Shown one piece after another: positions 4,736-43,932 of a stretch of DNA of 64,000 bases. The notes under the pieces were generated by a model. That model was not told where the DNA came from. It was given only the letters and a program-made list of their open reading frames with translations, and searched no databases. The position numbers and the translations under genes are program-made. This DNA is from Bifidobacterium sp. ESL0769 (lineage in GTDB: Bacteria; Actinomycetota; Actinomycetes; Actinomycetales; Bifidobacteriaceae): NCBI RefSeq assembly GCF_029395495.1, contig NZ_CP113918.1, forward strand, positions 1,798,001-1,862,000, given 5' to 3'. How positions within the stretch are numbered: the first letter of the stretch is position 1; every line of letters begins with the position of its first letter.

Positions 4736-4836
4736 CAATGGCGGAATAACGCGGAAACAAAATGTGAAATACACCACAAAGTTTTCGGCCTCGGTGTGTC
4801 GCATTGCATCACAAACAAAATTGTCCACACGTACCA

Positions 4837-4848
4837 TAATACGTATTA
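4837..4848. promoter_or_regulatory. 12-bp palindrome in the nrdD/xseA divergent region
   Basis: TAATACGTATTA is a perfect palindrome about 70 nt upstream of xseA. The 340-bp divergent gap (4577-4916) otherwise shows only the NrdR-box-like pair near the nrdD side. It may be an operator or part of the xseA promoter; I cannot decide. Confidence 0.3.
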
Positions 4849-4916
4849 CAAAAGGAATCTTGGCGTTGCCCTCTAGGAAATAAATTCTTGTCCTTCATAA
4901 AGAGGATTGTGGAGGC

Positions 4917-6239: not shown

Positions 6240-6348
6240 AAAGCGAGATTGCCGAAATCAGAAATCAGAATATTGATAACGGCCTTCGACTTTGGATATA
6301 ACAAACAGATAAATAACATCAATCAACAAAAGATATAAAGGACTAATC

Positions 6349-6684
6349 ATGGCAACAGCAAACAAGGACTCACACGACGACAAGAACGAAGACACGAAAG
6401 CGGCAGAAGCCGCCGCCCCGGCTTCGAGCCTCACCGACAAGGAACGCGACCAGATCGCGAAAATGCCGTATGAAGAGGCGCGCGACAATCTCATCAAAGC
6501 TGTGCAAGCACTGGAGGCCGGCGGATTGAACCTCGACCAGTCGATGCACCAGTGGGAGGTCGGCGAGGCACTGGCCAAGCGCGCGCAAAGCCTCTTGAAC
6601 GACGTCCGAGCCAAGCTCGAAAACGCCGAGGCCGAGCAGCAATCGACAGCCGCGACGGCTGGTACGCAATCCAATCTTGAATAG
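6349..6684 (+). CDS. xseB: Exodeoxyribonuclease VII small subunit
   Basis: A 111-aa protein. The conserved small-subunit core runs from about residue 40 to 90 (MPYEEARDNLIKAVQALEAGGLNLDQSMHQWEVGEALAKRAQSLL shape: two helices of the XseB fold). It is flanked by charged, Ala-rich tails at both ends, making it longer than the usual 70-80 aa. It follows xseA, the gene of its obligate partner. The ATG at 6349 has AAGGA 7 nt upstream. Confidence 0.93.
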   Translation: MATANKDSHDDKNEDTKAAEAAAPASSLTDKERDQIAKMPYEEARDNLIKAVQALEAGGLNLDQSMHQWEVGEALAKRAQSLLNDVRAKLENAEAEQQSTAATAGTQSNLE

Positions 6685-6742
6685 CGCAAGATCGGATTCC
6701 GTCTTCGCACGCTTTCAGACTCACCTATCTTAAGTAACATGA

Positions 6743-6791
6743 AATGGTCAATATCCCTGAAAATCAATTTTTCATGGCGATATTGGCCATT
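6743..6791 (+). terminator. Long hairpin after xseB
   Basis: AATGGTCAATATC pairs with GATATTGGCCATT (one G-T pair), with a smaller inner stem TGAAAA/TTTTCA in the loop. It lies 58 nt after the xseB stop and before pntA. There is no strong T-tract after it, so it is a possible terminator or a repetitive palindrome. Confidence 0.5.
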
Positions 6792-6939
6792 ATCAATAAG
6801 CGCTAACTCATCTTATAATGCATAATAGCGGACTATACTAGTGTTTATAAGACCCAAGGATGAGCACTGGACGACAACAGCGAAGTTGCGCTGCAATAAT
6901 GAATGTAGGAACGTTACCACCCCAAGGAAAGGAGCGAGC

Positions 6940-8514: not shown

Positions 8515-8519
8515 AGATC

Positions 8520-9908
8520 ATGACACTCGAATCCATTGCTCAATCCGCCTACTTGCTGGCGGCGGTGCTCTTCATCCTCTCCCTTGCTGGCCTTTCCAAG
8601 CAGGAAACCGCCCGTCGCGGCAATATCCTCGGCATGATTGGCATGTTCATCGCCATCGTCGCCACCATCGCCTTGGCGCTCGTTGATTCTCAACGCCCGG
8701 TATGGGTGACGGCCCTATTGATCGCCCTCGTTTTCATCGTCGGTGCCTCCATCGGTATTTGGAAGGCACGCACCGTCGAGATGACGCAGATGCCGGAACT
8801 GATCGCGATGCTCCACAGCTTCGTGGGTATCTCCGCGGTTTTGATCGGCTATAACTCGTGGCTTACCGAAAAGAATCCGAACGGCGCACATCTGGCTGAA
8901 ATCTACATCGGCGTACTGATCGGCGCCGTGACCTTCACCGGCTCGATCATCGCCTACCTCAAACTGGCAGGCAAGATGAAGTCCAAGCCGCTGATCATCC
9001 CCGGCCACAACATCATCAATCTGATGGTGTTGATTGTCATGATTGCAATGATCGCCTGGTTCATCCCGACGCAATCGATCTGGCCTCTGGCCATCATGAC
9101 CGTGCTCGCACTGCTGCTCGGCCTGCACATGGTCGCGGCCATCGGTGGCGGCGACATGCCCGTGGTCATCTCGATGCTCAACTCCTACTCGGGCTGGGCT
9201 GCGGCCGCTTCGGGCTTCATGCTCGACAACAACCTGCTGATCATCACCGGCTCGCTGGTCGGCGCTTCCGGCGCTATCCTCTCCTACCTGATGTGCAAGG
9301 CCATGAACCGCAAGTTCATGTCCGTCATCCTCGGTGGTTTCGGCGAAAAGCCGGCCAAGTCGGGCGATGCCAAGGAAATCACCGGTGAGGTGCACGAGAC
9401 CACCGCCGCCGACGTGGCGGAAATGCTCAAGAACGCGAACTCGGTGATCATCGCCCCCGGTTACGGCATGGCCGTCGCCAAGGCCCAGCAGGCCGTCGCA
9501 GGATTGGTCGAAAAGCTGCGCGCTCAAGGCGTCGAGGTCCGCTTCGCCGTTCATCCGGTGGCGGGGCGTTTGCCCGGTCACATGAACGTACTGCTGGCCG
9601 AGGCCAAGGTTCCCTACGATATCGTCATGGAAATGGATGAGATCAACGACGACTTCGCCGATACCGATGTCGTTCTAGTCATCGGAGCCAACGACACCGT
9701 CAATCCCGCAGCAGCCGAAGACCCCAACTCCCCCATCGCCGGCATGCCCGTGCTGCGCGTCTGGGAGGCCAAGCAGGTCGTTGTCCTGAAGCGTTCGATG
9801 GGCACCGGTTACGCCGGCGTGCAAAACCCGCTGTTCTTCAACGACAACACGTCGATGCTTTTCGGCGACGCGAAAGCCAGTGTGGAAGCCATCTCGAACG
9901 CGGTGTGA
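8520..9908 (+). CDS. pntB: NAD(P) transhydrogenase subunit beta
   Basis: A 462-aa subunit. The first ~270 residues are membrane segments of domain II (about eight hydrophobic stretches, with the HNIINLMVL and [15 protein letters not shown] signatures). The C-terminal ~180 residues are the NADP(H)-binding domain III, with [10 protein letters not shown] and the [10 protein letters not shown] and [13 protein letters not shown] motifs. The ATG follows the pntA stop by 5 nt, with AGGAAGGAAG as the ribosome site inside the pntA end. A 15-bp perfect terminator stem follows. Confidence 0.96.
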
Positions 9909-29197: not shown

Positions 29198-29947
29198 TCA
29201 TCTGTCATCTCCCCGATTTACGGGATTGGTACCATCCATTCCGACAATCTGCCGATAGAGCTGATCCAACGTTTCCTCGCGACGGGCCTTGCTCAACTCA
29301 CATTCCCAGACGACAAGCACCTTCCAACCGGCAGCCTCGAGTTCGGCATGCTGGCGGATATCGCGGTCGTGGTTGCGCACGAGCTTGGCTGTCCAGAACT
29401 CGACGTTGGACTTAGGCATCGAGAATTTCGTGCAGCCTTCGTGCATGTGCCAGAAACAGCCATTGACGAACACCATCGTGCGCCACTTGGGCAGCACGAT
29501 GTCTGGATGGCCCGGATAGCGCTTGTCATTCTTACGAAAGCGCAACCCGCGTCGGAATAGATAAGAACGAACGAGGACTTCGATTTTCGTATTCTTGCCG
29601 CGAATATGCGACATCGTATAGCTGCGGGTGCCGCGTTCGTATTTTTCGGCAGTCTTGGCTGATTTGCCGGACTTCCTCGCTTTTCGGGTGCCACCTTTGC
29701 CGCGTTTCTTTGTTGACTTTGCAATTTGCTGAGTTTCTTTGGACTCCGCGAGAGCCTTTACCGAGCCACTTTTGCGACGTTTCGCCGACAGTTTCGCGGC
29801 CTCCCGAGTTTCCCGGGAATCTCCTATCTTCACCGAATCATCGTTGCCATGTTTCATCGACTGCTTTATAGCAACAGAAGTGTCGGCGAAAACGTCCTTC
29901 TGGGTCGAAGATGTCTTGTCGTTCACCGTTTCTGATTGCTGTGCCAC
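29198..29947 (-). CDS. Very short patch repair (Vsr-like) endonuclease with basic N-terminal extension
   Basis: A 249-aa protein. Residues ~105-245 are a Vsr domain: TRSYTMSHIRGKNTKIEV at its start, the catalytic Asp in GHPDIVLPKWR, NGCFWHMHEGC with the zinc ligands, and the closing VLVVWECELS. Vsr nicks 5' of the T in T:G mismatches made by deamination of 5-methylcytosine. The first ~105 residues are an unusual Lys/Arg/Ser-rich, low-complexity extension; typical Vsr is 130-150 aa. The GTG start at 29947 has only a weak GGAA, and an internal ATG just before the Vsr core (MSHIRGK) could also be used. No cytosine methyltransferase is present in this window. The gap to the next gene (29948-30207) shows nothing recognisable. 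Confidence 0.85.
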   Translation of the reverse strand: MAQQSETVNDKTSSTQKDVFADTSVAIKQSMKHGNDDSVKIGDSRETREAAKLSAKRRKSGSVKALAESKETQQIAKSTKKRGKGGTRKARKSGKSAKTAEKYERGTRSYTMSHIRGKNTKIEVLVRSYLFRRGLRFRKNDKRYPGHPDIVLPKWRTMVFVNGCFWHMHEGCTKFSMPKSNVEFWTAKLVRNHDRDIRQHAELEAAGWKVLVVWECELSKARREETLDQLYRQIVGMDGTNPVNRGDDR

Positions 29948-31261: not shown

Positions 31262-31304
31262 TGTGAATCATGGATAATAAGTATTTTTTTGAGCATGATT
31301 CACA
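31262..31304. promoter_or_regulatory. 10-bp inverted repeat ending at the ribosome site
   Basis: TGTGAATCAT at 31262-31271 and ATGATTCACA at 31295-31304 are exact complements with a 23-nt spacer. The right arm abuts the GGGAGG ribosome site of the next gene, so it could act as an RNA fold or a repressor site. Confidence 0.4.
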
Positions 31305-31315
31305 GGGAGGTTTTC

Positions 31316-32371
31316 ATGAGCAGGCTGAACGGCAAACGCGCAGAGGCAGAAGAACAAGGGCTCAAGGTCAACGTCGCGATTCTTGGGGCCGGAGGCATCG
31401 CCAAATCGATGGCGAACACACTGGTCGAGATGGCCGGCGATTCACGGTATAGCAACTTGATTGAGCCTTACGCCGTGGCCGCACGCGACGCCGATCACGC
31501 CTCAGATTTCGCGCAAAAGTATGGGTTCGACGTTTCCTACGGCTCTTACGACGAACTGCTGGCCGACCCGAAGGTCGACCTCGTCTACATCGCCACGCCG
31601 CACGCGCTGCACGCCGAACAGGGCATCGCGTGCCTCGAGGCCGGCAAGAACGTTCTGGTCGAGAAATCATTCACTGCCAACACTTCGCAGGCACAGAAAC
31701 TGCTCGACGTCGCTAAGGAAACCGGTCTACTCTGCACTGAAGCCATCTGGACGCGCTACATGCCTTCGCGTGGTATCGTCGCCGACCTCATCAAGTCCGG
31801 TGAAATCGGAGAGGTACAGGCCGCCACTGCCAACCTCTGCTACCCCACCACGCACAAGGCCCGCATGACTGACCCCGAAATGGCTGGCGGCGCACTGCTC
31901 GATGTCGGCGTTTATCCGCTGAATTTCTTCGACATGGCGCTTGGCGCTGATACCAGCGAGCGCAAGATTTCCGACATTTCGACCTCGATGGTTCCTTACG
32001 AAACCGGCGTTGACGCCACCGATTCCATCGCGCTGCACTATAACGACGGCGTGATGGCCACCGCCACGGCTTCAATGCTTTGCGCCTCTGACCGTTCCGG
32101 CGCCATTTGGGGTACCAAGGGCTACATGGTCTGCCAGAACATCAACAATATCGAGGGCATCAATCTCTACGACCTCGACCACAAGCTGACCCGCCACGTC
32201 GACGTTCCCGCCCAACTCACCGGCTACGAGTACGAGGTCGCAGCTTCCGCCAACGCCATCCTCGACGGTAAGACGGAATGCGTCGAAATGCCCCACGCCG
32301 ACACCCTGCGCATCATGAAGCTCATGGACCAGATTCGCGGTAAGTGGGGGTTGAAGTACCCATTCGAATAA
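31316..32371 (+). CDS. Gfo/Idh/MocA family oxidoreductase
   Basis: A 351-aa NAD(P)-dependent dehydrogenase. The N-terminal Rossmann fold shows VAILGAGGIAKSMANTL. The catalytic-site motif normally written EKP appears here as EKSFTANTSQA, in common with dihydrodiol/xylose dehydrogenase-like members. The C-terminal alpha/beta domain has the GGALLDVGVYPLNF signature. The start is ATG 31316 with AGGGAGG upstream. The substrate is likely a sugar or dihydrodiol and cannot be fixed from sequence. Confidence 0.9.
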   Translation: MSRLNGKRAEAEEQGLKVNVAILGAGGIAKSMANTLVEMAGDSRYSNLIEPYAVAARDADHASDFAQKYGFDVSYGSYDELLADPKVDLVYIATPHALHAEQGIACLEAGKNVLVEKSFTANTSQAQKLLDVAKETGLLCTEAIWTRYMPSRGIVADLIKSGEIGEVQAATANLCYPTTHKARMTDPEMAGGALLDVGVYPLNFFDMALGADTSERKISDISTSMVPYETGVDATDSIALHYNDGVMATATASMLCASDRSGAIWGTKGYMVCQNINNIEGINLYDLDHKLTRHVDVPAQLTGYEYEVAASANAILDGKTECVEMPHADTLRIMKLMDQIRGKWGLKYPFE

Positions 32372-32397
32372 ACAGAAGCAGGTTTCAGCAAAACAGC

Positions 32398-32501
32398 AAG
32401 TTTAAAAATACTTTTTAACCTAATGCAGTTTTCATATAAGTTGAAAAGCATTTTTAAACTTGCTATATTTTTATAAGAAGTTTAAAAATACTTTTTAACT
32501 T
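32398..32501. repeat. Three 24-bp near-palindromic repeats, 40-bp spacing
   Basis: The 24-mer that begins AAGTTTAAAAATACTTTTTA occurs at 32398-32421 and 32478-32501, and in inverted orientation at 32438-32461 with two changes. Each is itself an imperfect palindrome, and the centres are exactly 40 bp apart. The last copy ends 20 nt before the ATPase start codon. The layout looks like a set of operators. Confidence 0.8.
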
Positions 32502-32521
32502 ACGTAAGTATCTGAGGAACT

Positions 32522-33718
32522 ATGATTGATAGGCCGCAATATCTCCACCACTTGGAGCAATGGAAAGACAAACCCGTCATCAAAGTAGTCACCGGCGTAC
32601 GACGCTGCGGTAAATCAACCATTCTGGAATTGTTCGCCAACCGACTTGCTGCTTCAGAGATTTCACAAGACCATATCATCTCAATTAATCTGGAACGTCT
32701 CGAAAACGAACCACTGCTTGATTATCACCGGCTCCATCAATTCATCATCGATCGCTGCCAAAGCGAAGGTACGTACTATGTGATGCTCGACGAAATCCAA
32801 AACGTGCCGAACTTTCAAAAAGTTCTCGACAGTCTGCAGACTCGCTCCAATATCGACCTTTACGTCACTGGCTCGAACGCAACATTGCTGAGCGGCACAC
32901 TTGCCACACTCATTTCAGGCCGATACGTTGAGATACCGGTCATGCCGCTTTCGTTCGCCGAATATCGTTCGGCCGCGCCTAAAGACGAATCGGCGCAGCG
33001 CACTTGGTCTCACTATATCCATGACGGTTCCTTCCCCGCGACCACAGAATTCAGCGGCGACGACACACTTATTCACGATTATCTGGAGGGCATTCTCAAC
33101 ACTATCCTCATCAAAGACGTCTCACAGCGCCTTGGCGGCACGCGCGCGGGAGCGGTGGAAGCGGTCACTCGCTTCATGTTCGACAATATCAGCGATCTCA
33201 CTGCGGCCAAAACTATCAGCGACACCATGACTTCCGCCGGCACACGTATCTCGTCGCCAACAGTGGCGAATCTACTCGAGGCATTGTGCTCCGCGTTCAT
33301 TCTTTACCCTGCGCAGCGCTATGACGTGAAAGGCAAGCGCATCCTCAAGCAGGAACGCAAATATTACGTTGTGGACATGGGCCTGCGCCGCATACTCGTT
33401 TCAGGAAACGTGCGCGACACCGGCAGAATTCTGGAAAACATCGTATTTCTCGAACTCAAACGCCGAGCGGGAACGGTGTACATCGGCCAATCCGCAGGAG
33501 GCGAAATTGATTTCGTCACCAACGGCACAGACGGCCCGGCCTATTATCAGGTTTCAGAATCGGTACGCGACCCCAAAACTCTAGAACGCGAACTCTCGTC
33601 GTTCCGTACCCTCGATGACAACTACCCCAAAACCCTCATCACCCTAGACGACGAACTCCCCACCAGTCACAACGGCATTCAACAGATTTACGCCCTTGAT
33701 TGGTTGCTTAAACGATAA
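32522..33718 (+). CDS. AAA family ATPase with DUF4143 domain
   Basis: A 398-aa ATPase. Walker A is VVTGVRRCGKST (about residues 23-34), Walker B is YVMLDEIQNV (about 85-94), and the DUF4143 C-terminal region (about 200-370) contains the nuclease-like GGEIDFVTNG segment. This family (AAA_14/DUF4143) is abundant in gut bacteria and archaea and its role is unknown. ATG 32522 has GAGGA upstream. It sits at the edge of an AT-rich defence island and is preceded by three operator-like repeats. The following 271-bp gap (33719-33989) holds an imperfect inverted repeat (33785-33849, TTGCCTC/GAGGCAA) that might terminate it, and otherwise nothing. Confidence 0.9.
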   Translation: MIDRPQYLHHLEQWKDKPVIKVVTGVRRCGKSTILELFANRLAASEISQDHIISINLERLENEPLLDYHRLHQFIIDRCQSEGTYYVMLDEIQNVPNFQKVLDSLQTRSNIDLYVTGSNATLLSGTLATLISGRYVEIPVMPLSFAEYRSAAPKDESAQRTWSHYIHDGSFPATTEFSGDDTLIHDYLEGILNTILIKDVSQRLGGTRAGAVEAVTRFMFDNISDLTAAKTISDTMTSAGTRISSPTVANLLEALCSAFILYPAQRYDVKGKRILKQERKYYVVDMGLRRILVSGNVRDTGRILENIVFLELKRRAGTVYIGQSAGGEIDFVTNGTDGPAYYQVSESVRDPKTLERELSSFRTLDDNYPKTLITLDDELPTSHNGIQQIYALDWLLKR

Positions 33719-33989
33719 TAAAAGTAAGCTACCAGCACCATATTTTGTTCAATTATTTAATTACGATTCACAGGTTGTAAACACGATTTTGCCTCGGCCA
33801 TTGCCATCCGCAATGAGATAAAACCGAAAGCTCAAAATGAGGCAAATCGAAAATGCCTTAGACCTCAAGTAAGTGTTCAGATAAGGGTTACTCAAAAGCT
33901 AATTATTGCGACATCATTTGACCTTAAAAAAATAGCGTTCCATTCTATTCAACAATATTAGAACAAAATGGAAAATCGACTAGTATTTA

Positions 33990-34397
33990 TTATTTTGAAC
34001 AGCTAACGCACGTTTCCGATAACGATACATGACCAGCATTATCTCTAACCCAGCTGAACTTCGCTAATGGATACTCATTATGGCAGCTACTGCAAGTCTT
34101 AAATGGGATAGTATCATAGCTACTAATAGTTATTCGAACTAATTTAGTATTCTTAGTTGAAACGCGTCGATATTCATTAGAAGTTTCCCCTTCTTTTTTT
34201 GGTCTGCATTCATCACACCAAGATTGCATTATCACTTTGGGATCTCGATCCGCCCCCTCTTTTTTCTTATTCACATTTCTATAACCAAATTCAGATAGGG
34301 GTTTCTCTAAATCACAATTTACACAAAAACGTGTAGGCTCCACTCCGTTCCATCCTGAATATTTAATTTTCACTTCACTTTTATTAAGTTGCTCCAA
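33990..34397 (-). CDS. Small protein with two zinc-ribbon-like four-cysteine modules (paralog 1)
   Basis: A 135-aa, low-GC protein I cannot assign to a known function. The N-terminal module has C25-x2-C28 followed by the box EKPLSEFGYRN, then QSWC61-x2-C64. A second, diverged module has C102-x2-C105, NEYPLAKF and C130-x2-C133. Paralogous single-module genes lie at 36896 and 37498. The start is TTG 34397 with an excellent AGGAGG 7 nt upstream. It is divergent from the methyltransferase gene. Similar CxxC...EKPLSxF fragments precede HNH nuclease domains in phages, but no HNH motif is present here. Confidence 0.7.
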   Translation of the reverse strand: MEQLNKSEVKIKYSGWNGVEPTRFCVNCDLEKPLSEFGYRNVNKKKEGADRDPKVIMQSWCDECRPKKEGETSNEYRRVSTKNTKLVRITISSYDTIPFKTCSSCHNEYPLAKFSWVRDNAGHVSLSETCVSCSK

Positions 34398-34616
34398 CTT
34401 AGCCTCCTATAAGAGAAATATTTAACTTTTCTCAAGAATACTTCAAAAAATAGATTCTGTTCATTATTCAAATCTAAAGACTCTGCCGAGTATCATCTTC
34501 TTGTTATTATTTACTGTCTTAACTTAAAAGTAATGACTTCGCAACTCGGTCCGAACCGATTCAGTCGCAACTTCTCCATAGAATTATTTTATTATTTAGC
34601 TAGGAATAGGTTGCTC

Positions 34617-35456
34617 ATGAGACGGAAAAATTTATTAAGACCAATTGTGAAATGGGTTGGCGGTAAAAGGCAGCTACTTGATGAGATCGTACCTTCAATC
34701 CCAACCGATAAAACTTATGTAGAGCCATTCCTCGGTGGAGGTGCAGTATTACTTGCTTTGAAGCCGAAACATGCAATTATCAATGATGCAAACTCCGAAC
34801 TTATTAACGTTTATACATGTGTTAGAGATGATACGGATGAACTAGTTAAAAGGCTTAAGGAACACAAAGAACAAAACCACGATAAAGGTGCTGATTATTT
34901 CTATGAGATTCGCGCCATGGATAGAAATGCGAATTATTCAAAAAAATCAAAAATCGATAAAGCCGCAAGAATAATTTATCTTAATAAAACCTGCTTTAAC
35001 GGACTATACAGAGTTAATTCAGCAGGCCAATTCAATAGTCCATATGGGAGATACAAAAATCCTGACATCGTCAATGAAGTAGGAATAAGAGCACTGGCAA
35101 AGTACCTGCAAGAAAATGACGTAAAGATTTTTTCTGAAGATTATACAGAGGTTTTGGCAACACTTAATTCAGATTCTTTTGTTTATCTAGATCCGCCTTA
35201 CATGCCGATTTCTAGTTCAAGCTCATTTACGGGATACACTGAGGGCGGGTTTAATTATCAAGCTCAACAACAATTAAAAGAAGAGTGCGACAAATTACAT
35301 GATAAAGGAGTCAATTTTATCGAGTCTAATAGCGATTGCGAGGAAATAAGAGAACTATATTCTGAATACAAGATAACAAAAGTAAAGGCACGCAGGGTAG
35401 TTAATTCACGTGCTGATCGGCGAGGCGAAATTAATGAGGTGCTGATTTATGGGTAA
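34617..35456 (+). CDS. DpnM/Dam-type adenine-specific DNA methyltransferase
   Basis: A 279-aa class D12 N6-adenine methyltransferase. It shows the opening PIVKWVGGKRQLL, the SAM-binding PFLGGGAVLL (about residues 37-46), FNGLYRVNSAGQFNSPYGRYKNP, which matches the DpnM family closely, and the catalytic DPPYMP (about 192). GATC is the family's usual target, so methylation of GATC is likely but not shown. I choose ATG 34617, where homology begins and an AGGAATAGG precedes; the frame opens at 34533. It overlaps the restriction gene by 8 nt. Low GC content marks it as acquired. Confidence 0.93.
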   Translation: MRRKNLLRPIVKWVGGKRQLLDEIVPSIPTDKTYVEPFLGGGAVLLALKPKHAIINDANSELINVYTCVRDDTDELVKRLKEHKEQNHDKGADYFYEIRAMDRNANYSKKSKIDKAARIIYLNKTCFNGLYRVNSAGQFNSPYGRYKNPDIVNEVGIRALAKYLQENDVKIFSEDYTEVLATLNSDSFVYLDPPYMPISSSSSFTGYTEGGFNYQAQQQLKEECDKLHDKGVNFIESNSDCEEIRELYSEYKITKVKARRVVNSRADRRGEINEVLIYG

Positions 35457-36759
35457 CAAATATTCAGCCGAGGAAGCTTGGAAACTTTTACTTAACGACT
35501 ACAATATTAAAGATAAAGTATCTAGTAACGGTTATTTCGATATTTCTGCCGATATGATCCGGAAATATCGAGAACCTCGGCTAATGGCTAAATGGGATGC
35601 AACGGAAAGCCTACCCCCTTGTCTTCGCAACGCAAACTTGAACATTCTTCCAACCTCAAGGAAGGGTTATATAGTATCAGACATCAATTTGTATAAATCT
35701 TTCCCACCACAATCGCACGATCAATCGACACATTTAGATTTCCCGGAATTCGAATCCATCAGTCCTCAACAAATTAGTTCGGAGTCGGACGCCATCAACG
35801 TCGAAATCATCAGTCATATGCTCGATGATTTTCTTGGTACTCCTGACACCGTTGAGACTTTTAATGGTCGTATGGGTACAGATGACTTTGATTTTTATGT
35901 TGATCGATTTAGCGGTACCTCACTGCATGTCAATGTTGATCACGCACAGCTCGAAATTGATGGTGGCTTCGAAAATGACGAGTCCATAATTATCATGGAA
36001 GCCAAAAATGTACCACATCCAGATTTTCACATACGACAACTCTATTATCCATACCGTCGTTGGCTGAAACGTGTGCAGAAACCTATCAGGCTAGTTTTCT
36101 CTCAATACACTAATCTCATCTATCACCTATTCGAATATGAATTTACCGATCCAAATAATTATTCTTCAATTCATCTTGTCAATCAACGCTCTTACACCTT
36201 TGAAGACACAAGCATTACATCTGATGATTTAGCTAATCTTTATGAAGACACCACCGTTGAAACCGATGACAATCGTGAGGATCCGGCTAATCCGCCATTC
36301 ATTCAAGCAGATAGATTCGAGCGGGTTGTAGCAATTCTTGAATGGCTCGATGACCCTTCCAGAGAAAGAGGAGTCAATTCTGAAGACGTTGCTGAGTATA
36401 TGAATTTCGACAGGCGACAAGGGGACTACTACCTAGCAGCGGGTGAATATCTTGGCCTTTTTGATCGTTCTCGTCGTCAACATACCGTTTTGACACCTTT
36501 AGGGCATCATTTATTATCCCTGCCTTATCGCGAACGCCAGCTTGGTTTCGTTAGACAGATGCTGAAACACGAGATTTTCCATCGTTTATATGGTGAGATT
36601 ATCGATAATGGAGATTATTCCAGTGTAGATGAGATTCAAAGCCTGATGACTGATCTCAATGTTTGTGCACCTGGAGCAACATTACGCCGTAGAATAAGCA
36701 GTGTGGATGGCTGGCTTCATTGGATTTGCTCTTTACCTGACATTACTGATACTGAGTAA
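35449..36759 (+). CDS. Type II restriction endonuclease (PD-(D/E)XK) with winged-helix C-terminus
   Basis: A 436-aa protein coupled to the methyltransferase (8-nt overlap), so the two form a type II restriction-modification pair. A PD-(D/E)XK core is visible: D171 in LEIDGGFE, then E184-A-K186 in IIMEAKN, followed by FHIRQLYYPYRRW. The C-terminal third (about 290-430) is helical and looks like a winged-helix/AAA-associated module (DVAEYMNFDRRQGDYYLAAGEYLGL). This is not DpnII itself (288 aa); the family matches larger enzymes with the EIDGG..EAKN..RQLYYPYR pattern. The sequence specificity is presumably that of the methylase. Confidence 0.82.
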   Translation: MGNKYSAEEAWKLLLNDYNIKDKVSSNGYFDISADMIRKYREPRLMAKWDATESLPPCLRNANLNILPTSRKGYIVSDINLYKSFPPQSHDQSTHLDFPEFESISPQQISSESDAINVEIISHMLDDFLGTPDTVETFNGRMGTDDFDFYVDRFSGTSLHVNVDHAQLEIDGGFENDESIIIMEAKNVPHPDFHIRQLYYPYRRWLKRVQKPIRLVFSQYTNLIYHLFEYEFTDPNNYSSIHLVNQRSYTFEDTSITSDDLANLYEDTTVETDDNREDPANPPFIQADRFERVVAILEWLDDPSRERGVNSEDVAEYMNFDRRQGDYYLAAGEYLGLFDRSRRQHTVLTPLGHHLLSLPYRERQLGFVRQMLKHEIFHRLYGEIIDNGDYSSVDEIQSLMTDLNVCAPGATLRRRISSVDGWLHWICSLPDITDTE

Positions 36760-36895
36760 AAGTAATATAGAACTCAGCAAACGGATGCAACAAGATTCTT
36801 TAATACCGGAATATTCTACATAGGACTTCTATTTATTATCTTGTAGAGCAACGACGATAAAGAAGGCTGCAAGGACAAACAACGATCGACCAAAC

Positions 36896-37048
36896 TTGCA
36901 AACAAATGGGTATAACGGGCATGAACCTACAAGAGTATGCCCCCATTGCGGGGAAGAAAAGCCGTTAAGCGCATTCGGCTTCCGGAATATGGGAGACGAC
37001 AATATCAGAAATCAATCTTGGTGCGTTTCTTGCCGTTCAAAAAGCTGA
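36896..37048 (+). CDS. Very small four-cysteine protein (paralog 3, unannotated size)
   Basis: An open frame of 50 codons from TTG 36896 to TGA at 37046-37048. It has the same pattern as the proteins at 33990 and 37498: NGHEPTR, then C15-x2-C18, EEKPLSAFGFRNM, then NQSWC43-x2-C46-R. No ATG exists in frame after the upstream stop, so either TTG is the start, as in paralog 1, or the copy is a decayed remnant; the ribosome site is weak. It lies just after the restriction gene. Confidence 0.5.
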   Translation: MQTNGYNGHEPTRVCPHCGEEKPLSAFGFRNMGDDNIRNQSWCVSCRSKS

Positions 37049-37097
37049 CGCTTTTTCTCAATATTTGAAGAAATTTCCAAACATTGATGCATAATCC

Positions 37098-37136
37098 ATT
37101 TGGGGGTGTCTCTACATTATAGAGACACCCCCAAAT
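37098..37136. terminator. Strong hairpin downstream of the restriction unit
   Basis: A perfect 16-bp stem (37098-37113 with 37121-37136; ATTTGGGGGTGTCTCT arm), 7-nt loop. It ends the restriction-modification/small-protein unit. The rest of the 36760-37497 interval holds paralog 3, an adh fragment and a long inverted repeat. Confidence 0.8.
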
Positions 37137-37141
37137 TAGTC

Positions 37142-37185
37142 AGAACTCAGCGATGACGGAACGGGCGACTTTGCCGCGCTTAGGT
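37142..37185 (-). pseudogene. C-terminal remnant of a third alcohol dehydrogenase gene
   Basis: The minus strand reads KRGKVARSVIAEF and a stop, matching the last residues of the two complete dehydrogenases nearby (KKGEVIRSVITEF, KQGKVIRSVITEF). Most differences from those genes are synonymous, so it derives from a once-functional copy rather than from a fresh duplication. Homology stops near 37185, and the rest of the gene is gone. Confidence 0.7.
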
Positions 37186-37199
37186 ATAGTGTCTGGTCT

Positions 37200-37315
37200 T
37201 TGTGCACTTTTGGTTTGCAGCCCTGATCACCTGTGTGTGGCGTTTCAATCGGTAACGGCCAACAAGGTGAAACACTGTGCGAAGATGACCATGGCTGCAA
37301 ACCAAAAGTGCACAA
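37200..37315. repeat. 116-bp element with perfect 23-bp terminal inverted repeats
   Basis: 37200-37222 is the exact reverse complement of 37293-37315 (arm begins TTGTGCACTTTTGGTTTGCA). A 70-bp centre contains a weaker inner repeat (GTTTCA/TGAAAC). It resembles a miniature inverted-repeat element or a structured RNA locus. I see no clear target-site duplication. Confidence 0.6.
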
Positions 37316-37497
37316 CTTATTGTCCGCATCCCGCTGTCATTTTGCGTTCTATTAACACGCTGAATATATGCGATCCAATTTTACGAATTACTATTTGATA
37401 AATATTAATATCTAACAATAAATCTGTTGTATTATAAATCGGATACTTGCAAAAGCCCCGAAGATTATTTTCCCGCTTCGCTTAAGGAGAGTGCAAA

Positions 37498-37683
37498 ATG
37501 GCAAATCCTAATAATAGAAAAATGATCATTGAGTTTCATCGATATGATTCTCAAAAAGGACCAATGCGTATTTGTCCGAAATGCCATCAAGAAAAACCTC
37601 TAAGCGATTTCGGTTTTAGAGATATGAATGATGGTCGAGTAAATCCAGTTACGAACCAGTCTCGATGCAAGAATTGCCGATAA
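37498..37683 (+). CDS. Small four-cysteine protein (paralog 2)
   Basis: A 61-aa protein of unknown function: C26-x2-C29 in ICPKCHQ, the box EKPLSDFGFRDM, and SRC57-x2-C60-R at the end. This is a single zinc-ribbon-like module. ATG 37498 has AAGGAGAG upstream, so it is very likely expressed. It lies between a long inverted-repeat element and the AIPR gene, with a hairpin before the latter. It is related to the small genes at 33990 and 36896; the shared EKPLSxFGxR segment between the two CxxC pairs is the family signature. Confidence 0.72.
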   Translation: MANPNNRKMIIEFHRYDSQKGPMRICPKCHQEKPLSDFGFRDMNDGRVNPVTNQSRCKNCR

Positions 37684-37713
37684 TAGACTTCAGCAGATAT
37701 AGAGACTATTGTC

Positions 37714-37742
37714 TGTGAGCCCCTTACAAGTAAGGGCTCACA
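37714..37742 (+). terminator. Hairpin between small gene and AIPR gene
   Basis: TGTGAGCCCCTTA pairs with TAAGGGCTCACA with one bulged C and a 4-nt loop. A T-tract begins 9 nt later. It may attenuate read-through into the AIPR gene. Confidence 0.55.
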
Positions 37743-37785
37743 TGAATATTCTTTTTTATTAATTAGAGAAACAAGAAGGTAGAAC

Positions 37786-39504
37786 ATGCCTGGTAATTTA
37801 GATCAATCAATGGATTACACTATGGTAGAACAGATTGCCATTAATTGTTTTGACTCATTCATGAATTCGGAAAATGACGTTCGGGTGGATCCAGCTTTGC
37901 TTACGGAAAAAGATAAAGCCCGATTTGGGTTTTATTTTTTAGTACTTTCAATAAAAACTGGAATTACTGAATTTGACGTACTCGACAATATGATCATCGA
38001 TACTGATTATTTAGCGAAAATTCATGGCGTTCAAAATGATGATCTAGGGGTTGATGCTGTATATATAAATGATGAAGAGTCAACTATAAATCTTTTCAAT
38101 TTCAAATATAGGGAAAATTATAAAAAAGGAAGCAGCCTGAGTGACAAAGTCGTCTTAGATGCTGGTAAATTTATTGCAGGTGTTCAAAATGGTAGCATGG
38201 ATCTGTCTGGATTAACTGCCTGCAAAACTAAAACAAAATTACAAAAAATTCAGCAGATTTATGATGAGTCTAATCAAGATTGGTCAATGAACTTAATCTT
38301 GGTTTCTAATGAAGATAATGGTTTATCACAAAATGCCCGAGAGCACCAAAAATTATTCTTAGTAAAGAACCAAATTCATATCGACGGTTTTGTACTACCA
38401 GACATTGTAGATGCACTTGCGGAAAAACCAGGAACAGGAAATCGCTTAACTACAGCAAAAATTAGAGTAAAAAGCGATGAAATGATGAGACACATAGATA
38501 GCGCAACGGGCAATGTTTCTTATCTAGTTACACTAACCATGGCTGATATAATCAGAATTTTGGGTAAAGACTCAGATAAACGTTTGGATTGTAATATTGA
38601 AGAATACGGCAATCTTGAAAATGAGCATCTTGATTCAGGGTTTCTCTTTGAAAATGTTCGTGGGTTCTTGACTCGGAGTGACTACAATCAGGGCATTTTG
38701 AATACAATAAAAAATGATCCTTCAAATTTTTTCACCTACAATAATGGCATAACTATTGTTTGTGAGAAGGTTAGACAGGAAAGTAAAAATGGTAATAGTG
38801 TTTCGATCTTAACTATTCATAATTATCAAGTCGTTAATGGCGGACAAACTGTTCGGACTATGTTCAATTCAAATCAAGACGAATTTTCGGAGGAAAGATT
38901 AGCTCAAGTCCAAGTTCTAGCTCGTATTTTTACTACCGAAGACACAAACGTTCGTTCTAAGATTGCAGAATATACAAATAGTCAGAATGCGATATCACCG
39001 GTTGATCTTAAATCCACTGATCACGTCCAATTGCTAATTGAACAACGGCTTAAACTGGGCGGAATAACTTATCTTCGTAAAGTTGGAGATCTTTGCAAAG
39101 AAAATCCTAAAAATCAATCCATTAGCCTTGAACTGGTTGGGCAAATTTTATATGCAATCAAAAAAGATCCAAGTCGTGCCACTAATCAAAAAAAGAAAAT
39201 TTTTTCGACTGAGTATAACAACCTTTTCCCAAATGACGACGGTAAATTCTTAGACAATGTCTTCCAATACTGTGAGGAATATTTTTCCAACAAAGCTACT
39301 TTTAAATGCACAAAGCAGGAGAATCTATACATATTGTATATGATCCATAATTCAAACCATGATATTGCTCCCGAACAAGCTTTCAAGATTTTAAAAAATG
39401 CTGAAAAGACTTACAAAGAAGATGAAGATATCCGGGCTCCTCGTAAACTAATTCAACCTGGCTTCAGAAAAGTTGTCGACTCAACTTTAAACATTGAGCA
39501 ATAA
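37786..39504 (+). CDS. AIPR (abortive infection phage resistance) family protein
   Basis: A 572-aa, AT-rich protein. The family core is visible as FFTYNNGITIVCEKV (about 315-328) and NYQVVNGGQTVRTMF (about 345-360), the signature of AIPR (PF10592). The N-terminal region has a nuclease-like pattern (DDLGVDAVYINDEESTINLFNFKYRENYKK, about 84-113), compatible with a PD-(D/E)XK-like fold. AIPR proteins were named for abortive-infection phage resistance in Lactococcus, and their mechanism is not settled. ATG 37786 follows GAAGGTAG. It lies next to a restriction-modification pair and the small cysteine proteins. Confidence 0.88.
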   Translation: MPGNLDQSMDYTMVEQIAINCFDSFMNSENDVRVDPALLTEKDKARFGFYFLVLSIKTGITEFDVLDNMIIDTDYLAKIHGVQNDDLGVDAVYINDEESTINLFNFKYRENYKKGSSLSDKVVLDAGKFIAGVQNGSMDLSGLTACKTKTKLQKIQQIYDESNQDWSMNLILVSNEDNGLSQNAREHQKLFLVKNQIHIDGFVLPDIVDALAEKPGTGNRLTTAKIRVKSDEMMRHIDSATGNVSYLVTLTMADIIRILGKDSDKRLDCNIEEYGNLENEHLDSGFLFENVRGFLTRSDYNQGILNTIKNDPSNFFTYNNGITIVCEKVRQESKNGNSVSILTIHNYQVVNGGQTVRTMFNSNQDEFSEERLAQVQVLARIFTTEDTNVRSKIAEYTNSQNAISPVDLKSTDHVQLLIEQRLKLGGITYLRKVGDLCKENPKNQSISLELVGQILYAIKKDPSRATNQKKKIFSTEYNNLFPNDDGKFLDNVFQYCEEYFSNKATFKCTKQENLYILYMIHNSNHDIAPEQAFKILKNAEKTYKEDEDIRAPRKLIQPGFRKVVDSTLNIEQ

Positions 39505-39516
39505 AATGTCTTATCG

Positions 39517-39549
39517 GATTTTCTGATCAGTATCATTAATCAGAAAATC
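39517..39549 (+). terminator. Hairpin after the AIPR gene
   Basis: GATTTTCTGAT and ATCAGAAAATC form an 11-bp stem with an 11-nt loop, 12 nt after the stop. A second inverted repeat (39578-39586 with 39611-39619) follows. The rest of the gap to 39792 shows nothing else. Confidence 0.6.
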
Positions 39550-39792
39550 TACAGGGCAATAGACGACTCAATTATGTCTCTTTGTCCCCACGGAAACATA
39601 TGCCTGTGAAGACAAAGAGGCGTATAAATTGTGCACGGAAAGACACCCGGTATATTCCCTCTTGCGGAGCAAAACAACAAGAGTGTAATGAGCCGTTCTT
39701 TCTGTTTAAATGAAATCAGAATTGACGAACCTGTAAACATGTCGGAAGGGCCCAACTCAATAGAGCTGAACCCTCCATTTAATTTAGCTGCA

Positions 39793-40908
39793 TCAGAACT
39801 CGGTGATGACGGAGCGAATGACCTTGCCCTGCTTGAGCTGGACGTAGGCCTCGTCGATCTGGCTCAAGTTGATATGCTGGCTGACGATGTCGTGCATGTT
39901 CAGGCGTCCGTCGACAGCGAGGTCGGCGTACATCGGGATATCGTGCTTGATATTCGTCGAGCCCATCCAGACACCCTTGAAGCCACGCTGGTGAACCAGC
40001 AGATCGGCCGGGTTAATCTCGAGGTTGATCGTTGCATCGGGCTTGGCAAGGCCGATGCAATACGCGGTGCCATCAACGCCGAGCATATCCCAGCACTGCT
40101 TCATCGTGGACTCGAAGCCAATGGCCTCAAACGCCTCATCCACACCGCCGTTGGTGAGCTCGCGCACCTTGGCAACAGGGTCCTCCTTCTTGGAATTGAC
40201 CACGTCGGTGGCGCCGAACTTCTTCGCGAACTCGAGCTTGTTGTCGAGCAGGTCGATGGCGATGATCTTCTTGGCACCACAAATGCGAGCGCCGGAGATG
40301 ATGTTCAAGCCAATGCCGCCCGTGCCGACAACGGCAACGGTGTCGCCAGGACGAACGTGCGCGGTGTTGATTGCAGCGCCGGCGCCGGTGATGGTGGCGC
40401 AGCCGATGCAGGCGGCCTCGTCCCACTTCACCTCGTTGTTGACCACGGCAAGCTGGTTCTCATGAATCAGCGCCTTCTCGGCGAAACCACCGGTGCCGAA
40501 GGCCTGGGTGATCGGACGGCCGTCCGGGAAGGACAGACGCGGCTTCTCGCCGGGCTTACGGACGCACTCCTGCTGCTGCGAGCAGGACTGCGGATGACCG
40601 TTCAGGCAGTTGGCGCAATGGCCGCACACCTGCTCGAGTGAAGCGACAACATGGTCGCCCACCTTGATGCCCTGCACTTCGGGGCCCACGGCCTCGACGA
40701 TGCCGGCGACCTCATGGCCGATGACGGCCGGGAACGGGAAGAACTGATCATCGTCCTCCACTAAATGCAAATCCGAATGGCACAGGCCGGAAGCCTGAAC
40801 GTCCACCAGTACCTCAGCGCCGATGGGGTCGTCAATGATAATCTCTTCAGGCTGGGCGAATCCCTTGCCTACTCCATAGGCAACCGAAGCTTTGATTTTT
40901 TGTGGCAT
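39793..40908 (-). CDS. Zinc-dependent alcohol dehydrogenase (copy 1)
   Basis: A 371-aa medium-chain NAD(P)-dependent dehydrogenase of the class III/formaldehyde dehydrogenase-like branch. Catalytic zinc ligands are in GLCHSDLH and GHEVAG, the structural zinc site is CGHCANCLNGHPQSC, and the Rossmann GTGGIGLN lies near residue 200. It probably reduces acetaldehyde to ethanol or oxidises alcohols. It is a tandem duplicate of the gene at 41349 (28 residue differences in my alignment, about 92% identity). The upstream region has an inverted repeat AATGTAA/TCACATT (40931-40950) that could be an operator. Start ATG 40908 with AAAGGAG. Confidence 0.95.
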   Translation of the reverse strand: MPQKIKASVAYGVGKGFAQPEEIIIDDPIGAEVLVDVQASGLCHSDLHLVEDDDQFFPFPAVIGHEVAGIVEAVGPEVQGIKVGDHVVASLEQVCGHCANCLNGHPQSCSQQQECVRKPGEKPRLSFPDGRPITQAFGTGGFAEKALIHENQLAVVNNEVKWDEAACIGCATITGAGAAINTAHVRPGDTVAVVGTGGIGLNIISGARICGAKKIIAIDLLDNKLEFAKKFGATDVVNSKKEDPVAKVRELTNGGVDEAFEAIGFESTMKQCWDMLGVDGTAYCIGLAKPDATINLEINPADLLVHQRGFKGVWMGSTNIKHDIPMYADLAVDGRLNMHDIVSQHINLSQIDEAYVQLKQGKVIRSVITEF

Positions 40909-41244
40909 GGTTACTCCTTTTATTCTCGAAAATGTAACCTATCTCACATTACAATGGTCGGACTTCCATCAGCAAGCAGCGAAGAAACGTCGCGTTTCTG
41001 CAACATTTACAAACATTCGTAACGCAGAAAACTCACACAATATAAACAGTAAGCACACATAAATGCAAAAAATAAACCAGAATACGACATTATAAAATAC
41101 AATATATAACCAGTCTAAATCTCAATATCACATGCAATAGAATCCCCGGCGGCAAACCCACCCGTCTCAGGTATTTGGCGCCTCTCCCTGATCTTAACCT
41201 CGATAAAAACAGTGAAGGGCGATATCCACTTACCGGAAATAAAA

Positions 41245-41283
41245 ATGGGCCGGCTCCATACCCAAAGGCAGGAACCGGCCCAT
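41245..41283 (-). terminator. Terminator of the second alcohol dehydrogenase
   Basis: ATGGGCCGG pairs with CCGGCCCAT, extended by TCC/GGA across one mismatch. On the minus strand it is followed by TTTTATTT. The rest of the 440-bp gap between the two adh genes (40909-41348) is AT-rich and has no gene I can support. Confidence 0.75.
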
Positions 41284-41348
41284 AGCGGGTAAAGCGGCAA
41301 TCGGATATAAATCCAATTCCAATTAGCGCTTCACCAACGTGCCGAATT

Positions 41349-42464
41349 TCAGAACTCAGTGATGACGGAGCGGATGACCTCGCCCTTCTTCAGCTGGACA
41401 TAGGCCTCGTCGATCTGGCTCAGGTTGATATGCTGGCTAATCAGGTCGCGTACATTCAGACGGCCGTCGACGGCAAGATCGGCGTACATCGGGATGTCGT
41501 GCTTGATGTTGGTCGAACCCATCCAGACGCCCTTGAGACCGCGCTGGTGAACCAGCAGATCCGCCGGGTTGATCTCGAGGTTGATCGTCGCATCGGGCTT
41601 GGCCAAACCGATGCAGTATGCATTCCCGTCAACGCCGAGCATATCCCAGCACTGCTTCATCGTAGGAGCCATGCCGATGGCCTCAAACGCCTCATCCACA
41701 CCGCCGTTCGTCAGTTCGCGGACCTTGGCAACCGGGTCTTCCTTCTTGGAATTGATGACATCCGTAGCGCCGAACTTCTTGGCAAACTCGAGCTTGTTGT
41801 CAAAAACGTCGATGGCGATGATCTTCTTGGCACCGCAAATGCGAGCGCCGGAAATCATATTCAGACCGATACCGCCAGTACCAACGACAGCGACCATGTC
41901 ACCGGGACGTACATGCGCGGTGTTGATGGTGGCACCCGCGCCGGTGATGGTCGCGCAGCCGATGCAGGCGGCCTGATCCCACGGCACCTCATTGTTGACG
42001 ACAGCGAGCTGGTTCTCATGAATCAGCGCCTTCTCGGCAAAACCGCCGGTGCCAAAAGCCTGGGTAATCGGACGGCCGTCAGGGAACGACAGACGCGGCT
42101 TCTCACCCGATCTGCGCACGCACTCCTGCTGCTGAGAACAGGACTGCGGATGACCGTTCAAGCAGTTCGCGCAATGACCACACACCTGCTCGAGAGAAGC
42201 AACGACGTGATCACCGACCTTGATACCTTCAACTTCAGGACCAACGGCTTCCACAATGCCGGAAATCTCATGGCCGATGACTGCCGGGAACGGGAAGAAC
42301 TGATCATCGTCCTCCACCAAATGCAGATCGGAATGGCACAGGCCGGAAGCCTGCACATCCACCAGCACCTCAGCACCGATCGGATCGTCAATGACGATAT
42401 CCTCGGGCTGAGCGAACCCCTTTCCAATTCCATAAGCAACTGAAGCTTTAATTGTTTGCGGCAT
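41349..42464 (-). CDS. Zinc-dependent alcohol dehydrogenase (copy 2)
   Basis: A 371-aa near twin of the gene at 39793, with the same zinc and cofactor motifs (GLCHSDLH, GHEISG, CGHCANCLNGHPQSC, GTGGIGLN). The start is ATG 42464 (MPQTIK) with AAAGGAG upstream; the longer open frame to 42512 is rejected because copy 1 starts at the same residue. The upstream gap (42465-42837) is AT-rich and contains GGTTAC-agac-GTAACC at 42492-42507, a 17-bp palindrome at 42598-42614 and AAGTGA-attttg-TCACTT at 42642-42659. The last resembles redox-regulator (Rex) sites only loosely. Confidence 0.95.
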   Translation of the reverse strand: MPQTIKASVAYGIGKGFAQPEDIVIDDPIGAEVLVDVQASGLCHSDLHLVEDDDQFFPFPAVIGHEISGIVEAVGPEVEGIKVGDHVVASLEQVCGHCANCLNGHPQSCSQQQECVRRSGEKPRLSFPDGRPITQAFGTGGFAEKALIHENQLAVVNNEVPWDQAACIGCATITGAGATINTAHVRPGDMVAVVGTGGIGLNMISGARICGAKKIIAIDVFDNKLEFAKKFGATDVINSKKEDPVAKVRELTNGGVDEAFEAIGMAPTMKQCWDMLGVDGNAYCIGLAKPDATINLEINPADLLVHQRGLKGVWMGSTNIKHDIPMYADLAVDGRLNVRDLISQHINLSQIDEAYVQLKKGEVIRSVITEF

Positions 42465-42837
42465 AATACACGCTCCTTTGCGTCTTTTACAGGTTACAGA
42501 CGTAACCCGCAATTATTGCTTGCTTGAAAAATCAACCGGAATATGAGCGCTGATTATCCAGCGCAGCCCATTCCGCTGTCCCCAAGACGAACAACAATAA
42601 TTATATTATAATTACTTTAAACAAAATAAAACAATCGAGGGAAGTGAATTTTGTCACTTTAAGAGAAATTCGTTCCAACTTCACCGGTATCGACGTCCCG
42701 AATGCAATGACGCATTTCCATCGATAAAACGATCTCGAAACAAACCGATGAAATATCGAATCCCGTCAAATTCCATACGGAAGAACACTTCTTTCATTCC
42801 CAGCCATAGGAAACCGCATCTTACCTTATTTCGCTTC

Positions 42838-43719
42838 TCAGGCGTAGGTGAAAGTCATCGGATCATGACCAGCACGGGTCGGGCCGTCGAGCGCATCAAT
42901 CTGCGCGTGCTCTTCAGGGGTCAGAGCGAAGCCGAAGAGGTCGAGGTTTTCACGCTGACGATCCGTATGGACGGACTTGGGAATGACGATGGTGCCGTTT
43001 TCGATATGCCAACGCAGGATGACCTGAGCGGGTGAAACATTATGGGCTTGCGCGATGCGGGCAATGGTACCATCGCCAGCATTGAGATCGGCTCCGCGGG
43101 CCATCGGGGAATACGCTTCGACGGCGATGCCGTGCTCTTTGCAGAAGGCGACGACTTCACGCTGCTGCCAGGTGGGGTGCAGCTCAATCTGATCGACCGT
43201 AGGCCACTCCCCTGTTTCCCGATGCAAACGTTCAAGATGTTCCGGCAGGAAGTTGCAGACTCCAAGCGTGCGCACACGGCCCTCGTCGCGCAGCTTCATC
43301 AGTGCCTTCCACGTTTCGCCGGAGCGCCAGTTGAACGGCGTCGGCCAATGCAGCATGTACATGTCGACATAGTCAAGGCGCAAATCACCCAACTGTCGGT
43401 CAAAAGCCTTAAGAACGCTGTCGTAACCCTGCTCGGAATCCTTGAGCTTGGTGGTTACCCAGAGCGATTTACGCTTCTCGCCGGCATTAAAGCCAGTTTC
43501 CGCGAGCGCACGGCCGACACCAGGCTCGTTATTATAGCCCGCGGCGGCATCGATATGGCGGTAACCGACCTCGAGGCCAGACTTGACGACACTGGTCACG
43601 TCGTCGTCGCTGATACGCAGCACTCCAAGTCCAATTTGCGGAATTCTATTGCCATCGCTTAACGCGATATCAGGGATTTCCGTTGCTGTTCCTTTGGTTT
43701 CTTCAGCGTTCATCGACAT
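42838..43719 (-). CDS. Aldo/keto reductase
   Basis: A 293-aa NADPH-dependent reductase of the AKR fold. The motifs are GYRHIDAAAGYNNEPGVGRAL (catalytic Asp/Tyr region, about 50-70), YVDMYMLHWPTPFNW (about 115-130), LGVCNFLPEHLERL, and IVIPKSVHTDRQREN, the cofactor-binding loop near residue 250. The start is ATG 43719, with AAAGGAGC 3-4 nt upstream; an ATG two codons later (43713) is also possible. It follows the alcohol dehydrogenases on the same strand and may act on related aldehydes or sugars. Confidence 0.93.
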   Translation of the reverse strand: MSMNAEETKGTATEIPDIALSDGNRIPQIGLGVLRISDDDVTSVVKSGLEVGYRHIDAAAGYNNEPGVGRALAETGFNAGEKRKSLWVTTKLKDSEQGYDSVLKAFDRQLGDLRLDYVDMYMLHWPTPFNWRSGETWKALMKLRDEGRVRTLGVCNFLPEHLERLHRETGEWPTVDQIELHPTWQQREVVAFCKEHGIAVEAYSPMARGADLNAGDGTIARIAQAHNVSPAQVILRWHIENGTIVIPKSVHTDRQRENLDLFGFALTPEEHAQIDALDGPTRAGHDPMTFTYA

Positions 43720-43932
43720 TGCTCCTTTTGTCGTCAACTGGTACCCAGACTACTAGCCGACCACGTCCATATACCTAGAAGTGAACGATTTCCAGCATCC
43801 GTCAACGTCCGAGCAAGAAAATAGTTGCGGGAAACCTTCACTCAGCGGTCTTCCGGAACTGACAAGCATCCAGCCGACAGTGTAGACAGCCGATAATGAG
43901 GAGTCGACGGAATCAAACCCTGCCCGGCAAAT

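Follow-up and report, generated by a model that had tools for sequence, protein, structure and literature searches.

Introduction

GATC-type restriction-modification (R-M) systems are some of the most thoroughly studied Type II systems, and those of the DpnII/MboI type comprise DpnM, DpnA and DpnII; the described DpnII system has, to our knowledge, no zinc-finger gene. The small proteins Lar and Ral are encoded by phages or prophages and act on Type I enzymes. Accessory proteins are known in Type II R-M as well, and the C proteins among them act through helix-turn-helix (HTH) motifs according to the excerpted text of PMC12707154. Here we analyze a defence island in a 64,000-nt stretch of DNA (hereafter, the window) from a genome of 2,495,776 bases (positions 1798001-1862000) whose gene content suggests a Bifidobacterium similar to B. 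longum. The island carries a Dam methylase gene, a restriction nuclease gene, a gene for an AIPR protein, and three genes for small four-cysteine (Cys4) proteins that we call SM, a protein family for which we found no description as an R-M accessory gene in the libraries or the literature searched.

The methylase and nuclease genes resemble DpnII/MboI-type systems in that a D12-class Dam lies beside a nuclease, and SM is also found in loci whose nuclease is the DpnII of PF04556; the window nuclease, in contrast, is of the DUF6997 type. Like the C proteins, SM is a small protein encoded in an R-M operon, with a proposed role in setting the balance between restriction and modification, but its architecture is Cys4 and no HTH family was listed for it in Pfam or NCBIfam. 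Ral and Lar are likewise small proteins acting on R-M and give a weak profile match to SM, but SM is encoded inside Type II cassettes. SM also matches the zinc-finger segment of EndoVII/HNH proteins, but it lacks an HNH part, its sequence stopping at the fourth cysteine or close to it.

Results

SM genes form a conserved family beside Dam methylase genes

The genes on which the argument turns are located in the window as follows.

33990..34397, minus strand: SM135, 135 aa, two Cys4 units, divergent from the Dam gene (open reading frame (ORF) and alignment)
34533..35456, plus strand: Dam methylase, D12 class, DpnM-like (PF02086, TIGR00571, 2dpm)
35449..36759, plus strand: Type II restriction endonuclease of the DUF6996/6997/7226 kind (Pfam and PADLOC REase_II)
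36872..37048, plus strand: SM50, Cys4 zinc-finger-like protein, 3' of the nuclease gene (ORF and alignment)
37498..37683, plus strand: SM61, diverged 61-aa Cys4 protein upstream of AIPR (ORF and alignment)
37786..39504, plus strand: AIPR protein, AbiU-like (PF10592 and PADLOC AbiU)

The three SM proteins are related to each other at 38-51% identity, which bears out the kinship proposed in an initial annotation made from the letters of the window. Its description of all three as four-cysteine proteins has to be amended for SM135, which has eight cysteines in two Cys4 units, the first a full SM domain and the second degenerate, and SM50 has no normal start: its frame contains neither ATG nor GTG, and the first start is TTG 36896. 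SM50 may be decayed; it is also the nearest of the three to the relatives outside the window. Ten positions (R24, C26, C29, K33, F38, G39, R41, Q54, C57, and C60 in SM61 numbering) are invariant in the three window proteins and 23 relatives, and the core consists of two CxxC pairs, with EKPLSxFGxR between them and QSxC before the last pair. All three window proteins carry these positions, which were read from the same 26-row alignment that includes them. In SM61, a nearly invariant W before Cys3 is replaced by R, and its six best relatives are 57-62% identical.

Relatives of SM were sought by the SM sequence alone, and their neighbours were examined afterwards. This gave 34 strong loci outside the window: 24 in genome_contigs, two in viral_contigs (out of 18 loci found in that search), four in further genomes of the family to which the window belongs, two on plasmids, and two from the class of G586, namely G658 and a weaker one in G983 (2.8e-7). 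Among the 24 genome_contigs loci, a Dam gene lies within 4 kb of SM in 20 and within 3 kb in 18, against an expectation of ~0.7% per locus (55 D12 hit rows in 68.7 Mb of the 24 host genomes; P ~1e-39). Four of the 24 have no Dam: L036 lies at a contig edge with a split DpnII gene upstream, L049 lies at a contig edge with an overlapping methylase gene downstream, L048 is a 3.4-kb contig with nothing of R-M beside SM, and L045 is taken up in the Discussion. An R-M gene (Dam, DpnII, DUF6997, or a linked methylase) adjoins SM in 32 of the 34 strong loci, and among these 32, as computed from hand-entered coordinates, the distance is <160 bp in 29 and the strand is the same in 28. The gaps to R-M genes are mostly 11-90 bp. 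The usual position of SM is directly after the nuclease gene; it lies between Dam and DpnII in L032, L033, and L160, and is divergent or convergent in L019, L024, L046, and L050.

Judging from the record titles, the loci presumably belong to Bacillota, Actinomycetota, and Spirochaetota, and one short SM contig is titled as an Akkermansia metagenome-assembled genome. Across the 189 genomes of the family, which we take to be Bifidobacteriaceae, a strong SM occurs in five and DUF6997 in nine, and all five are within the nine (P 7e-8). The initial annotation had suggested that the small proteins may be working parts of one system, in which case they should recur beside methylase/nuclease or AIPR genes far more often than by chance, and the counts above for R-M genes agree with that expectation. 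SM is probably an undescribed accessory gene of GATC-type R-M.

Diverged SM-like domains occur in other contexts

Diverged SM-like domains were found in 14 viral contigs (L055-L067 and L069), mostly with 40-45% identity over 36-43 residues, and two further viral contigs, L068 and L070, match SM more weakly. The SM-like proteins of L056 and L069, the two tested, match phrog_7682. Only L055 of the 14 has an adjoining methylase match, an N6_N4 methylase directly after the SM-like gene. A second plasmid search returned 16 further records with partial SM-like matches; in the five plasmids examined, the segment is C-terminal on an HTH-type protein in four and free-standing in one, and none of the five has an R-M match. 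The fusions in the small enterobacterial plasmids L162, L164, L165, and L166 join an HTH-type N-terminal part to an SM-like Cys4 C-terminus and are possibly replication proteins; the L162 protein, the one on which Pfam was run, is DnaD_N plus HTH_36. The wider domain is used elsewhere, probably for nucleic-acid binding, and the tight linkage to R-M belongs to the strong SM family, not to this wider domain. Scattered occurrence in unrelated contexts, which the initial annotation had named as the outcome that would speak against it, is seen for the diverged domains and for the strong locus L045.

SM genes might also merely hitchhike in defence islands and have no role. Decayed-looking copies (SM50 with its abnormal start, and L042 and L047 with their early stops) speak for this, as do the diverged SM-like domains found away from R-M matches in prophage-like contigs and small plasmids. 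The operon placement of the strong family at short gaps, which recurs across several phyla and with nucleases of two classes, argues against this explanation, which we consider very improbable.

SM is shared between two nuclease classes

The nucleases of L029 and L034 are DpnII (PF04556) by Pfam, and the other DpnII loci were assigned by similarity to these two; SM loci of the DpnII class often carry an N6_N4 methylase as well. The median SM identity between the nuclease classes is 0.72, while within the classes it is 0.70 and 0.75. Since SM is as similar across the classes as within them, its target would be something that these systems share, be it GATC DNA, Dam, or a host factor, and not the nuclease.

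A structural or catalytic cofactor of Dam or of GATC cleavage, for example a zinc finger that positions DNA in trans, would also accompany Dam across two nuclease classes, as SM does. The nearest domain relatives of SM are parts of nucleases, and L043 (Brachyspira) pairs SM with Dam without a recognised nuclease adjoining, both of which fit such a cofactor. On the other hand, Dam-family enzymes are known to work alone, and some Dam/DUF6997 cassettes do without SM: four of nine in the family, and the plasmid cassettes L171, L173, and L174, in which no SM match below E 0.3 was found. We regard a cofactor role, as opposed to a regulatory one, as unlikely.

The SM domain has kin among nuclease zinc fingers and a Lar-like family

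SM scores above the cut-off of no family in Pfam or NCBIfam and is absent from the PADLOC hits. Against PHROG, the window SM proteins match segments of EndoVII/HNH proteins (segments of phrog_1035, 2255, 2340, and 2633) and a Lar-like restriction-alleviation family, with E from 6e-3 to 4e-7; SM135 matches an HNH zinc finger as well as the Lar-like family. The SM domain thus has kin, yet the stand-alone family is uncatalogued in the libraries used.

The Lar-like matches raise the question of whether SM is a restriction-alleviation or immunity protein that, in the manner of Ral and Lar, inhibits the nuclease of its cassette or, acting at the protein level, enhances methylation while the cassette becomes established. 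The Lar-like family is the best PHROG match of SM135 (3.6e-7) and of the SM of L030 (3.3e-6), and SM50 weakly matches TIGR03655 (Lar) with 15.8 bits and E 0.013, below the curated cut-off of 39.6 bits; no TIGR03655 match was listed for SM61 or SM135. However, the best PHROG match of SM61 and SM50 is an endonuclease VII family and not the Lar-like one, and the Lar matches may reflect only a shared zinc knuckle. In addition, SM is alike across unrelated nucleases, which would be odd for a direct nuclease inhibitor. An alleviation protein in this sense is a minor possibility in our judgment.

The left module is a putative GATC-type cassette

The initial annotation described a DpnM-like methylase overlapping a nuclease, and both parts of this description hold, the Dam ORF (34533-35456) and the nuclease ORF (35449-36759) sharing 8 bp. 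The Dam protein matches PF02086 at 5.9e-72 and also TIGR00571, and its best solved relative is DpnM (2dpm, 9.6e-72); its true start is probably ATG 34617, judging from the lengths of its relatives. The nuclease matches DUF6996/6997/7226 in Pfam and REase_II in PADLOC (6.3e-80), and no PF04556 match was listed for it at E up to 1. E169, D171, E184, and K186 are invariant in the ten nuclease sequences aligned, and D171...E184-A-K186 are likely the PD-(D/E)XK residues. An AlphaFold2 (AF2) model of the nuclease has a predicted local distance difference test (pLDDT) score of 85.8, and its comparison with the PDB gave no significant match; a Cas4-family protein headed the list (E 0.02, TM score 0.14-0.21). 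The methylase and nuclease genes are adjacent, as Type II R-M requires, and the left module thus appears to be a Type II R-M cassette of Dam and a DUF6997 nuclease, for which a GATC-type specificity is suggested by the DpnM homology only. The scarcity of GATC in the flanks is 0.62, which lies inside the range of 12 relatives (0.55-0.78) and hence is uninformative on GATC specificity.

The island lies in a defence hotspot

The remaining features of the island and its edges are as follows.

32522..33718, plus strand: AAA_14/DUF4143 ATPase, left hotspot edge (Pfam)
37098..37136, no strand assigned: 17-bp perfect hairpin that could act as a terminator in either direction (fold z -8.3 and -7.2, 0/200 shuffles each)
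37140..37181, minus strand: remnant of the 3' end of an alcohol dehydrogenase (adh) gene (direct repeat family D2 with 39793 and 41349)
37200..37315, no strand assigned: inverted repeat with 48-nt arms, 79% complementary (repeat analysis)
37712..37745, plus strand: hairpin between SM61 and AIPR with a T-run ~10 nt downstream (fold z -4.0, 1/200 shuffles as good)
39793..40908, minus strand: adh gene, right hotspot edge (ORF and repeat)

From left to right, the island reads SM135 (minus strand), Dam, the nuclease, SM50, a hairpin, the adh remnant, the inverted repeat, SM61, a hairpin, and AIPR, and it is bounded by the AAA_14/DUF4143 gene on the left and the adh gene on the right. The guanine-cytosine (GC) fraction is 0.345-0.42 across the six kb bins of 34001-40000 versus 0.46-0.62 in every other kb bin of the window, confirming the sharp drop that the initial annotation had reported. 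The terminators that it placed between the genes are a different matter: a strict terminator scan returned none, while strong hairpins are present at the two positions listed and at 39516-39550, where the fold z is -5.9; all these z values refer to the stretches that were folded.

The 42-nt remnant shares 79% identity with the 3' end of each of the two resident adh genes, and in six of 12 relatives it also has a match at an adh 3' end. The tandem adh genes (39793-40908 and 41349-42512) are 87% identical over their last 300 nt, and the adh copies and the cargo may turn over together. The remnant splits the island into an R-M half and an AIPR half, and the simplest reading is that there were two acquisitions, the AIPR half having been inserted at, or swapped into, an adh end. 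The inverted repeat, a 38-bp piece of which recurs once elsewhere in the genome (87%), is shaped like a miniature inverted-repeat transposable element and may be a small mobile element.

The site is a defence hotspot. In the window (31289-43737) and in loci L141-L152, it lies between an oxidoreductase gene and adh/aldo-keto reductase genes, and its cargo varies among 12 relatives. All 12 of the fetched relatives lack a match to SM, Dam, or DUF6997 in the stretch after the oxidoreductase gene, and the AAA_14/DUF4143 gene is itself variable, being intact or partial in eight of 12. Cargo was identified in three relatives and includes a C5-methylase and an SNF2-type helicase in L141, a second AAA_14 protein in L150, and, in L152 (G104, 4113-9519), a NUDIX protein and a PLD-ResIII-DUF3427 helicase beside a different AIPR. 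Just outside the island, a gene for a Vsr mismatch endonuclease (TIGR00632) occupies 29198-29947 on the minus strand, with a match near the locus in six of 12 relatives.

The AIPR half is loosely linked to R-M

The AIPR protein named in the initial annotation is confirmed by PF10592 (4.1e-42; 145 bits against a gathering cut-off of 25), and it also matches PADLOC AbiU at 3.3e-35. Ten full-length AIPR relatives were compared: the window, L103, L104, L109, L171, L172, L177, L178, L185, and L186. R-M genes with a GATC core adjoin AIPR in five of them, namely Dam and DUF6997 in the window, L109, and L171, Dam with an N6_N4 methylase and DpnII in L172, and, in L186 (6258-10443), an N6_N4 methylase, a small ORF, and a BglII-type nuclease (PF09195), after which comes an AIPR from the same subfamily as in the window; the BglII recognition site has a GATC core. 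The other five gave no match to the R-M query proteins used, which other kinds of R-M could escape, and L104, L177, and L185 lie near contig ends. Conversely, AIPR genes were found by similarity to the window AIPR in two of the 34 SM loci (L022 and L039), and the AIPR of L039, which SM abuts, belongs to a different subfamily with 18% identity to that of the window.

A linkage of AIPR/AbiU to R-M has already been published, as the excerpted texts of PMC2292703 and PMC3506569 indicate; the latter describes AbiU1/AIPR as often associated with R-M and gives the PrrC precedent, and the excerpt of PMC5608340 mentions an "intermedia" R-M operon. In the literature searched, we found no published link between AIPR and SM.

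These associations bear on a layered system in which Dam and the nuclease would act first, AIPR would be a fail-safe on breach, and SM would couple the two, as in PrrC. Five of the ten AIPR relatives beside GATC-core R-M, the published precedent, and the position of SM next to AIPR in L039 and ahead of it in the window are consistent with this idea. But AIPR occurs in few SM loci, and one of these AIPR proteins is distant; half of the AIPR relatives have no nearby R-M match; L171 and L172 carry AIPR and R-M without SM; and the adh remnant lies between the window halves. We consider a single layered system decidedly unlikely, and the right module (SM61 and AIPR) appears from its sequence context to be a separately acquired anti-phage unit beside the R-M module. 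The initial annotation had inferred that the small proteins may be working parts of one system; the part in which the small proteins are more than passengers stands (32 of 34 loci adjoin R-M), and the membership of AIPR is less supported (two of 34 loci). The five AIPR relatives with GATC-core R-M keep a looser, weaker link between AIPR and R-M alive.

Discussion

Our preferred reading, which we hold tentatively, is that SM may govern the GATC cassette as a zinc finger, with DNA/RNA or Dam as its point of action. The linkage to R-M genes, the independence of nuclease class, the kinship with EndoVII/HNH segments and the Lar-like family, and the fusion of an SM-like domain to an HTH/DnaD-like plasmid protein speak for this reading. 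The data show the family, its linkage, the exchange of nuclease class, the layout in two modules, and the hotspot, and from them we infer zinc binding, GATC specificity, and regulation. SM would be a free-standing, non-catalytic version of the EndoVII/HNH Cys4 module, with zinc presumably held by its cysteines, and its binding partner would be nucleic acid or DNA-bound Dam. It would thereby tune the balance between methylation and cutting, either by restraining the nuclease until genome methylation is in place or by raising methylation, and its action would be independent of which nuclease is present. A broader proposal, which is possible but which we find somewhat unlikely, is that SM is a new, non-HTH type of R-M control factor shared across nuclease classes that reads the GATC methylation state or Dam, and that SM61-AIPR sometimes couples an abortive-infection effector to the failure of GATC restriction.

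Several observations weigh against a governor role. At L045, a good SM stands without any R-M match across 8 kb upstream and 6.8 kb downstream, and SM is not obligatory, being missing from the DNA examined at four of the nine family DUF6997 loci (G001, G111, G171, and G188, the last a 5.7-kb contig). The outside copies L042 and L047 are broken. Constraint on SM speaks for the role, with a reservation: over 22 loci, the median identity of SM is 0.72, compared with 0.46 for Dam and 0.43 for same-class nucleases (DUF6997 0.41, DpnII 0.65), and SM exceeds Dam in conservation in 221 of 231 pairs, but the loci were fetched via conserved SM motifs, so the conservation of SM is biased upward. In the five family loci, SM and Dam both stand at 0.65, with SM higher in four of ten pairs. 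The distances of SM and Dam are uncorrelated (rho 0.04; 696 of 2000 permutations as high), and therefore we do not claim coevolution with Dam. Upstream of 29 Dam genes, no shared 9-mer rose above shuffles, giving no direct sign of regulation. The structure model of SM is middling (pLDDT 71) and gave no significant match in a fold search, and the GATC specificity of the window enzymes is drawn solely from homology.

The entry of such cassettes into an unmethylated cell is understood mainly for systems with C proteins. SM is a concrete candidate for R-M control during the entry of a cassette into unmethylated cells, and for annotation, SM provides a mark of GATC R-M operons.

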